Source of the DNA: Micromonospora orduensis
GTDB lineage: Bacteria > Actinomycetota > Actinomycetes > Mycobacteriales > Micromonosporaceae
Length of the DNA stretch: 64,000 nucleotides
Reading direction: 5' to 3'
Assembly: GCF_006228125.1 (NCBI RefSeq)
Contig: NZ_VDFY01000106.1
Span: 1 to 64,000 of the forward strand
Of the stretch, positions 49,375-50,927 are shown piece after piece. The notes beneath the pieces were generated by a model. That model was not told the DNA's origin and ran no database searches. It saw only the letters and a program-made list of their open reading frames with translations. A program made the translations under genes and the position numbers. How positions within the stretch are numbered: position 1 is the first letter of the stretch; each line of letters opens with the position of its first letter.

Positions 49375-49911
49375 TCAGTCGGCTGGTGTCAGGTCGAGCC
49401 ACATGAGGATCTCGTCCCGGTCGTCACCGGGCGCGACCCGCAGCGCCCCCGGCAACCGGCCGACCTCCCGGTACCCGAGGCGGCGGTAGAACCCGTCCAG
49501 CCCCAACCCGTCGCGCACCGTCAGGTGCAACGCCTCGTGGCCCATCTCCCGACCCAACCGGGTGGCCTCCCGCATCAACGCCGCGCCATATCCGCTGCCC
49601 TGGGCGTCGGGGTGCACCATCACCCGCTTCAGCACACACCAGTGCGCCTTGAGCCCGAACCGGTTGTCGCAGAAGATCAGCACGGCGACCAGCCGCGCAC
49701 CGTCGTACCCGAGCAGCAGCCGGTCCGGCCCCTCGGTGATGTCCACGAAGGTCGGGTCGGCGATCGTACGGACGTCGGCCGCGGTGACCGGCGGCACGAA
49801 ACCCACCGCACCGCCGGCGTTGCTGGCGTCCGTCCAGAGGGCGACGATCTCGGTACGCAGGCTCGGCGTCAGGTCGGGGTCGAGGACGAAGCGCAGACTC
49901 ACGCCGCCCAT
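49375..49911 (-). CDS. GNAT-family N-acetyltransferase
   Basis: 178 residues. The acetyl-CoA pyrophosphate loop is VMVHPDAQGSGYGAALMREA and the later strand/helix reads LGLDGFYRRLGYREVGRLPG. Acceptor unknown. Convergent with the expansin-like gene (8 bases apart); its start lies 72 bases from the unusual tRNA. Confidence 0.87.
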   Translation of the reverse strand: MGGVSLRFVLDPDLTPSLRTEIVALWTDASNAGGAVGFVPPVTAADVRTIADPTFVDITEGPDRLLLGYDGARLVAVLIFCDNRFGLKAHWCVLKRVMVHPDAQGSGYGAALMREATRLGREMGHEALHLTVRDGLGLDGFYRRLGYREVGRLPGALRVAPGDDRDEILMWLDLTPAD

Positions 49912-49982
49912 CCTGACCCGGCGACCAGGCCCGCGACCCGCGACAGTGACGCGTTTGACAACGCGCTCTGACCGAACTTGTG

Positions 49983-50056
49983 TGGGGCCGGCGGGATTCG
50001 AACCCGCACTGGTACGGACCTAAACCGCATGCCTCCTGCCGTTGGGCTACGGCCCC
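49983..50056 (-). tRNA. tRNA with anticodon UAG (Leu codon CUA) but class I body
   Basis: A 74-nt cloverleaf reads cleanly on the minus strand. The acceptor stem is GGGGCCG/CGGCCCC with discriminator A. The D arm has a GCC/GGC stem and GG in its loop. The anticodon stem is TGCGG/CCGTA with loop TTTAGGT (anticodon TAG, U33 and G37 in place). The variable region is five bases (CCAGT), and the T arm is GCGGG-TTCGAAT-CCCGC. No CCA is encoded. UAG should read the leucine codon CUA, but bacterial tRNA-Leu are class II with a long variable arm, which is absent here. It abuts an HNH-endonuclease remnant. Confidence 0.88.
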
Positions 50057-50420
50057 CTGAAGCTGTACTCCACCAGCATCCACGGCCATTCTTGCCGACG
50101 AGGCAGTCGTCTGCCTATTCGGAAGCCAGTGGGAGTAACCGCGTCAGGATCGTAGACCACCTCGGCATCGACGCGGGTAGGCCTTCGCTGCCCAGCGTAC
50201 GTGGAGGTCTGGCTGTGGCAGTTGGGGCACATACGCCTCGGTTGTGCGCCTGCCCCGTGAAGTGCGACGTGTCGATGCCAGATCTCTTGAGCTGGCGGCT
50301 GATGTGGGCGTGTTAGCCACCACTGACGCGTACGCCGAGCAACCGCATCACCTCGGTGATGTTGCGCACTGCGGCGGCCGCTTGCGCGAGCGCCTCGGGC
50401 GTGTACTTGTACCGAACCAT
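50047..50420 (-). pseudogene. Decayed HNH endonuclease gene
   Basis: Starting at ATG 50420 the frame reads MVRYKYTPEALAQAAAA, then reaches TAA at codon 36 (50313-50315). Translation past it continues HAHISRQLKRSGIDTSHFTG, the typical N-terminal half of a family of actinobacterial HNH endonucleases. After HNRG (ending 50235) the homology jumps to another frame with MCPNCHSQTSTYAG (about 50193-50234), the C-terminal zinc-knuckle end of the same family. The central part with the HNH histidines is missing. So there is a nonsense codon plus an internal deletion/frameshift. The last codons run into the adjacent tRNA gene. bcp ends 31 bases upstream of the pseudogene start. Confidence 0.8.
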
Positions 50421-50450: not shown

Positions 50451-50927
50451 TCAGTCCAGGCCGAGGTCGCGGCGGAGCTTGGCGACGTGCCCGGTGGCCT
50501 TGACGTTGTAGAGCGCCCGTTCGACCTTGCCGTCGCCGTCGATGACGAAGGTCGAGCGGATCACCCCGGTCACGGTCTTGCCGTAGAGCTGCTTCTCGCC
50601 GTACGCGCCGTACGCGGTGAGCACCGCCTTGTCGACGTCCGACACCAGCGGGAAGGTGATCGCGTCGCGGTCGCGGAACTTCGCCAGCTTCTCCGGCTTG
50701 TCCGGGGAGATGCCGACGACCTCGTAGCCGGCCGCCTGAAGGGAGGCGAGCGAGTCGCGGAAGTCGCAGGCCTGCTTGGTGCAGCCGGGGGTCATGGCCG
50801 CCGGGTACGCGTACAGGACGACCTTGCGGCCGCGCAGGTCGGCGAGGGAGAGCTGGTCGCCGGTGTCGGTGGGCAGGGTCCACTCGGGGGCGGGGTCACC
50901 GGGGGAGAGGCGGTCGGGCGTGGTCAT
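50451..50927 (-). CDS. bcp: Thioredoxin-dependent thiol peroxidase (BCP/PrxQ)
   Basis: 158-residue peroxiredoxin reducing hydroperoxides. The peroxidatic Cys49 is in AAMTPGCTKQAC, with a resolving Cys54 five residues later, the PrxQ/BCP pattern. Start MTTPDRLSPGDPAPEWTL is normal for the family. VVGISPDKPEKLAKFRDR and YGEKQLYGK are conserved. The usual YPKANTPGCT is AAMTPGCT here. It stands alone. Confidence 0.95.
   Translation of the reverse strand: MTTPDRLSPGDPAPEWTLPTDTGDQLSLADLRGRKVVLYAYPAAMTPGCTKQACDFRDSLASLQAAGYEVVGISPDKPEKLAKFRDRDAITFPLVSDVDKAVLTAYGAYGEKQLYGKTVTGVIRSTFVIDGDGKVERALYNVKATGHVAKLRRDLGLD

Follow-up and report, generated by a model that had tools for sequence, protein, structure and literature searches.

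A probable replacement of the host tRNA-Leu(UAG) gene by a phage-type tRNA in an HNH cassette of Micromonospora

Can a bacterium come to read one of its leucine codons with a tRNA of phage type, held in the place of its own? Single-copy isoacceptor tRNA genes are taken as fixed and vertically inherited, and bacterial tRNA-Leu is taken to be class II, with a long variable arm. The question is raised by a locus of the soil bacterium Micromonospora orduensis in the 64,000-nucleotide stretch that we analysed (the window; RefSeq assembly GCF_006228125.1, contig NZ_VDFY01000106.1, positions 1 to 64,000), where a tRNA-Leu(UAG) gene with a short variable region (class I) adjoins the remnant of an HNH endonuclease gene. 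We consider it probable that the host tRNA-Leu(UAG) gene has repeatedly given way to a tRNA-Leu of phage type that came in an HNH homing cassette, and the best explanation of the window tRNA is that it took over the job of the chromosomal tRNA-Leu(UAG), namely reading the rare codon CUA. We favour this takeover because the gene occupies the class II slot, the two types were never found in one genome, the tRNA is conserved and covarying, CUA aligns mostly with leucine, and HNH and tRNA types travel together. The central feature is:

49982..50056, minus strand: class I tRNA-Leu(UAG) gene (ARAGORN, Rfam, alignment of 21 relatives, covariation)

ARAGORN, which the initial annotation had proposed running, called tRNA-Leu(tag) at exactly these positions, and the Rfam tRNA model RF00005 matched at 49983-50056 with 53.2 bits; its E value of 1.3e-8 in the 64-kb window means that the match is not due to chance. 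The gene is 74-75 nt long, has discriminator A and no encoded CCA, and carries the anticodon loop TTTAGGT and a five-base variable region, CCAGT, both as initially annotated. It therefore belongs to class I: it has the leucine anticodon (UAG) of a canonical bacterial tRNA-Leu and lacks the long variable arm of class II. It fits the phage-type class I tRNA-Leu pattern in its D-arm (GTAGCCCAA..GGCAG..AGGC), its class and its leucine anticodon. The statement that it folds perfectly has to be qualified, as the anticodon stem contains one G-U pair, the D-stem is three pairs long, and folding of the RNA as a single sequence favours an alternative D-arm pairing (z-score -1.84; 10 of 200 shuffles folded as well or better). 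In an alignment of 55 distinct class I tRNAs that had been fitted to a model, every cell of all 20 pairs was nevertheless paired; two-sided changes occurred in 13 of the 20, including C-G to U-A in the D-stem, and sliding the pair partners lowered pairing to 52% or less. We rejected a chance match or mis-call (all 58 chosen loci fitted the class I model), a pseudogene or tRNA-like RNA (from the conservation and covariation) and an origin by deletion of the long arm from a local class II gene, the two bodies differing throughout as judged by eye.

The tRNA had first been described as odd and perhaps as cargo of an element; that it is an extra beside a normal set is not supported. All 50 RF00005 hits in the genome were inspected, and the UAG anticodon was found only in the window class I tRNA, which stands where relatives have their class II gene; the leucine tRNAs with anticodons CAA, CAG, GAG and UAA are class II and 84-85 nt long. 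The assembly is listed as 100% complete and consists of 321 contigs, so that a second UAG gene might still lie in a gap. The same genome has a tRNA-like gene (G000:C263:34667-34796, L072) that ARAGORN called tRNA-Gln(ttg), its anticodon loop carrying an insert of 56 bases, and a normal tRNA-Gln(ttg) gene is also there.

In 150 genomes of the family (Micromonosporaceae), tRNA-Leu(UAG) is class I in 61 and class II in 88, no genome was found with both, and one (G094, 87% complete) could be assigned to neither. These counts come from a class I pattern that matched 59 genomes and two class II patterns that together matched 84, class II calls resting on one of the two being rechecked by ARAGORN; among the seven genomes matching neither pattern, G038 and G070 were assigned to class I and G066, G076, G097 and G140 to class II, leaving G094. 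A hidden extra class II gene in the class I genomes was rejected, as the two patterns recovered 84 of the 88 class II genes but gave no class II gene in any of the 61 class I genomes; where the looser of the two matched class I genomes (G055, G075, G111 and G116), the matches proved not to be tRNAs. Among 296 genomes sampled from the phylum the class I pattern matched 6, the class II pattern 237, both none and neither 54. Five of those six belong to f29, a distant family of another class of the phylum, whose nine sampled genomes comprise five with class I, three with class II and one with neither; its class I genes (L417-L421) have a different acceptor stem, and the same genomes gave no class II pattern match. 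Among the Streptomyces-like genomes (f4, n=8), G331 holds a class I type whose D-arm is different, and six were left without a class call. In G342, of the same group, a gene of class II length lies at the peroxiredoxin gene bcp; ARAGORN called it Pro(agg), and by eye its loop reads TTTAGGG, which gives the anticodon UAG. Upstream of the class I tRNA-Leu(UAG) of G331, with its different D-arm (L423), four HNH-like stretches stand in a row, as if several cassettes had landed and then decayed.

Leucyl-tRNA synthetase is not known to read the anticodon, and we infer that it charges the class I tRNA. The codon served by UAG is rare: in window genes with at least two relatives, CUA made up 20 of 22,877 codons. 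At 11 window CUA sites, class II relatives carried leucine in 19 of 22 cells, by codons other than CUA, and the reverse CUA comparison gave leucine in 60 of 68. Control codons of the window gave CTC to leucine in 452/625 and GTA to valine in 52/77. As far as aligned sites can tell, CUA thus behaves like other codons and does not suggest a new meaning. It is hardly credible that CUA has been reassigned or that the tRNA has a role other than decoding leucine. The class I shape is indeed unusual for leucine, and yeast mitochondrial tRNA-Thr(UAG) (PMC7609411) illustrates that UAG-anticodon tRNAs can switch identity. However, the site alignments do not support reassignment, since leucine stands opposite CUA about as often as opposite CTC, and 77 of the 78 viral tRNAs with the same body, from 80 loci of at least 120, have a leucine anticodon.

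How the tRNA came to this place is a question for the locus as a whole, in which the following features surround the tRNA gene (L004 is a relative with an open HNH gene, which served as reference for the residues of the remnant):

50451..50927, minus strand: peroxiredoxin (bcp-like) gene, fixed upstream neighbour (Pfam AhpC-TSA 2.5e-38; synteny)
50235..50366, minus strand: N-terminal part of the HNH remnant, residues 10-53 of L004, with one in-frame stop (tblastn, 90.9% identity)
50053..50238, minus strand: C-terminal part of the HNH remnant, residues 127-188 of L004, in another frame (tblastn, 64.5% identity)
50047..50049, minus strand: TAG stop of the HNH frame, at tRNA bases 8-10 (from the sequence; 23 of 43 class I loci share this overlap)
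49962..50241, minus strand: block that, but for 38 bases, does not align with class II relatives, the exchanged cassette as left in the window genome (window versus L110 and L104)
49375..49911, minus strand: GNAT acetyltransferase gene, downstream neighbour in several Micromonospora (Pfam Acetyltransf_1 1.4e-11; synteny)

The slot beside bcp is shared by both tRNA types: bcp lies upstream at 27 of 30 class I loci of the family and at all 20 class II Micromonospora HNH loci. We took the best 80 of 341 relatives of the L004 HNH among candidate stretches in named genomes, ranked by likeness to the class I HNH, so that their class proportions are not frequencies. A tRNA-Leu(UAG) lay just downstream in all 80, class I in 43 (one of which, L121, has a different tRNA body) and class II in 37. 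The HNH frame enters or crosses the tRNA gene in 54 of the 80; it stops at tRNA bases 8-10 in the 23 class I loci that share the window overlap, and at bases 34-36, the anticodon TAG itself, in five of the 37 class II loci (L095, L096, L106, L109 and L127). These frames were traced from the start of the match, and frameshifts would mislead the tracing. The pairing of an HNH gene with an odd tRNA, as initially described, is real in its HNH partner and in the gene overlap, but it is not special to odd tRNAs, given the 37 class II loci. Of the 30 class I family loci, 6 have an HNH gene over most of its length and 3 have a partial one, and 21 have none. The condition named at the outset as refuting a mobile origin, a universally conserved and HNH-independent tRNA in all relatives, is therefore found in part: the tRNA often stands without HNH, but it is not universal, with class II in 88 of the 150 family genomes.

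HNH and tRNA types move jointly between close relatives, in a block of a few hundred base pairs. We counted tRNA class changes on trees of 33 Micromonospora loci (13 class I and 20 class II) against 200 label shuffles. The bcp tree required at least 10 changes (shuffles: mean 10.4, range 7-13) and the HNH tree only 2 (mean 10.4, range 5-13), with many weak branches in both trees. It is scarcely conceivable that both types are old and vertically inherited, with differential loss. Both do occur in several genera of the family, but no genome was found with both, and class is random on the bcp tree, as its count beside the shuffle mean indicates. In nine pairs of class I and class II relatives, both flanks align (82-97% in long pieces) and the 3' part of HNH together with the tRNA does not: the alignment breaks within HNH and restarts about 20-90 bases past the tRNA, the HNH portion of the exchanged block being still recognisably related, at roughly 45-85% per 60 bases. 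The window itself aligns with L110 and L104 up to 50241 and again from 49962, with only 38 bases (50229-50192) aligning inside the block; against L094 and L100 the right-hand alignment restarts at 49918. The median ratio of nonsynonymous to synonymous substitution rates (dN/dS) of HNH was 0.18, 0.23 and 0.21 in three groups (64, 153 and 87 usable pairs), indicating purifying selection. The nine pairs and the HNH and bcp trees, all comparisons of sequence, match the pattern that homing-type gene conversion of a nuclease and its flank between alleles would leave.

In the window genome the nuclease is dead and the tRNA remains. A broken HNH gene whose last codons lie inside the tRNA gene had been reported from the start, and our reconstruction bears this out, with a remnant in two frames ending at TAG 50049-50047. 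The gene is interrupted by the in-frame stop, changes frame and lacks about 223 bases, present as extra bases between the two remnant parts in the relative L003. Residues 54-126 (L004 numbering) are missing, and with them most of the metal-binding and catalytic motif. In 34 HNH relatives H113, N125, H134 and two CxxC pairs are invariant, and since C93, C96, H113 and N125 fall in the lost residues, the window enzyme cannot be active. Pfam HNH and HNH_3 matches of the relatives lie just below the cut-off. A structure model of the HNH protein (predicted local distance difference test, pLDDT, 84.6) gave no PDB match at E 0.001 or better, the best being the HNH domains of McrA and Cap5, uninformative on function. 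A PADLOC homing endonuclease profile matched HNH at 4.5e-11, a likeness by name only.

The genes around the locus are ordinary: besides the peroxiredoxin and the GNAT acetyltransferase, they encode MOSC, lytic transglycosylase-like, cobalt transport, methyltransferase and LytR-family proteins. This bears on the possibility that the locus is a relic of tRNA-dependent lysogeny, in which a prophage broke the host tRNA-Leu(UAG), supplied its own, decayed and left the phage tRNA behind. Actinophages do use such a mechanism, in one instance with a tRNA-Leu(CAA) (PMC10865867). We think it very unlikely here, as none of the ten neighbouring genes (45.4-53.8 kb) has an integrase or phage domain, the flanks are the same for both allele types, and both types have HNH.

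Where, then, would the class I type come from? A blastn search of phages matched 41 records, of which six were opened; Thermobifida phage P318, Gordonia phages GodonK and Sixama, Rhodococcus phage Francesca and Streptomyces phage CeilingFan each have a class I tRNA-Leu(UAG), and the sixth, Wakanda, matched through a class I Leu(CAA). The HNH gene beside the Sixama tRNA-Leu(UAG) runs to tRNA base 10, as does the one in the window. We also searched viral contigs with a D-arm motif blind to anticodon and variable arm, and among 80 loci of at least 120 found 78 tRNAs with the motif; one was called Gly, and 77 are class I, shorter than 80 nt, with leucine anticodons (UAA 41, UAG 15, CAA 14, GAG 5, AAG 1 and CAG 1). 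At four loci there was no tRNA at the match. The best phage family of the intact HNH is PHROG phrog_10822 (HNH endonuclease, 3e-43), which tells nothing of function beyond its name. Among the best 80 of 577 viral HNH relatives, tRNAs were present at 74 loci and a same-strand adjacent tRNA at 55, leucine being included in 41 of these 55, against a leucine background of 22% of the 563 tRNAs at those loci. Viral tRNAs with the same body and six leucine anticodons thus point to a phage origin of the class I type.

The breadth of anticodons would also suit a reading in which the class I form is itself beneficial: lacking a long arm, it might be spared by nucleases whose recognition depends on that arm, which would explain its use by phages and its retention in some hosts. 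We regard this as improbable, since class II leucine tRNAs also occur in many host arrays and viruses, and since it would account for the existence of the form and not for the cassette swaps between relatives. Class I leucine tRNAs occur elsewhere in hosts too. Class I Leu(CAG) genes lie in chromosomal tRNA arrays of the family members G028, G103 and G045 (L461, L462 and L463), and two of these arrays have a Leu(GAG) as well. A plasmid search returned four records with weak matches, in the 76-80% identity class. A Nonomuraea linear plasmid (NZ_CP107854.1, L275) has class I tRNA-Leu(AAG) and tRNA-Leu(CAG) next to a class II Leu(CAA), and its gene table lists none of these.

Taken together, in-place replacement by a phage-type tRNA is well supported. 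The early idea of a mobile cassette has gained ground from the phage-type tRNA, the HNH partner and the swaps between relatives. HNH homing appears to be the best mechanism to have driven the replacement, although we hold it with less confidence than the replacement itself. The HNH enzyme of a cassette would cut the resident tRNA-Leu(UAG) region in a cell lacking the cassette or holding the other type, and repair would then copy in the incoming HNH-tRNA block. The copied tRNA would keep the cell alive because leucyl-tRNA synthetase would charge it; the HNH gene could later decay, as in the window, or be lost, and the foreign tRNA would be retained because it is needed. A more tentative extension, which we rate as possible but doubtful, is a natural "home-and-rescue" drive, in which HNH destroys the needed tRNA-Leu(UAG) gene and the cassette brings a recoded replacement that cannot be cut. 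A leucine tRNA of the other class would be about the most different sequence still chargeable with leucine; class I and class II alleles, each with its own HNH, might chase each other through the Micromonosporaceae, and decay of HNH would leave a foreign, indispensable tRNA as a scar.

Several observations weigh against replacement by homing. When three class I genomes, the window genome among them, were pooled, CUA cells were leucine in 24 of 36 (with 8 valine, 3 proline and 1 alanine), although the control codons did no better. Micromonospora globispora (L092), the exception on the HNH tree, combines a class II-type HNH with a class I tRNA; its locus is composite, with a class I-type HNH, of which the C-terminal half is there, lying between the class II-type HNH and the class I tRNA, as if one cassette had landed behind another. 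A simple promoter scan, weak evidence in GC-rich DNA, found neither a promoter nor a terminator belonging to the tRNA. The viral HNH family also adjoins non-leucine tRNAs, leucine being involved in 41 of the 55 adjacent cases, and transfer from phage to host is only the simpler reading of the direction. Finally, HNH-free transfer is possible where HNH is partial (3) or absent (21) among the 30 class I family loci, and the f29 class I genes have neither bcp nor HNH within 1.5 kb, which means that HNH is not always involved. These last points favour the most serious rival, that ordinary homologous recombination between shared flanks, which are long and similar, spreads the class I allele, with HNH as a passenger or in some other role. 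We judge it unlikely, since the exchanged block holds both HNH and tRNA, HNH type tracks tRNA type, and HNH is under purifying selection and lies beside tRNA-Leu(UAG) in every one of the best 80 of 341 loci.

About two fifths of the sampled family (61/150) seem to decode CUA by a phage-type tRNA of class I, and the type of tRNA-Leu(UAG) varies between close relatives. Homing, if true, would be nature's equivalent of the engineered drives that bring along a rescue copy of the gene they target, and one open to testing in a laboratory actinomycete. The class I leucine tRNAs, with six anticodons, offer natural test material for leucyl-tRNA synthetase acting without a long arm. Annotation of tRNAs is also worth checking, because such genes can pass for phage extras.

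In the available parts of the open-licence literature searched, we found no description of an in-place exchange in which the host loses its own tRNA gene; several known systems share features with this one. Horizontally acquired tRNA clusters of mycobacteria include a short-variable-loop tRNA-Leu(TAG) and HNH, and were judged to be phage-derived (PMC6582537); there, however, the tRNA-Leu(TAG) is an extra beside the normal isoacceptor, whereas here no other UAG gene was found. In tRNA arrays of mycobacteria and phages HNH is the most widespread coding gene reported, but the accessible portions of that study mention neither replacement of a host gene nor the class of leucine tRNAs (PMC5966550). 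In actinophage tRNA-dependent lysogeny (PMC10865867), a phage tRNA likewise compensates for a lost, needed host tRNA of the same isotype. There an integrase puts the prophage into the host gene, whereas here the gene is exchanged in place and the ten neighbouring proteins include no integrase (attachment scars were not searched for). A further parallel is SegB of T-even phages, described in PMC2988022, PMC6409571 and PMC13096335 as a free-standing GIY-YIG homing endonuclease that cuts the tRNA region and drives its inheritance. In both systems a free-standing nuclease gene lies among tRNA genes and tRNA DNA would be at once target and co-transferred cargo; SegB is a GIY-YIG enzyme of phages, whereas here the nuclease is of the HNH type, the setting is a bacterial chromosome, and the tRNA stands where the host's only such gene is.
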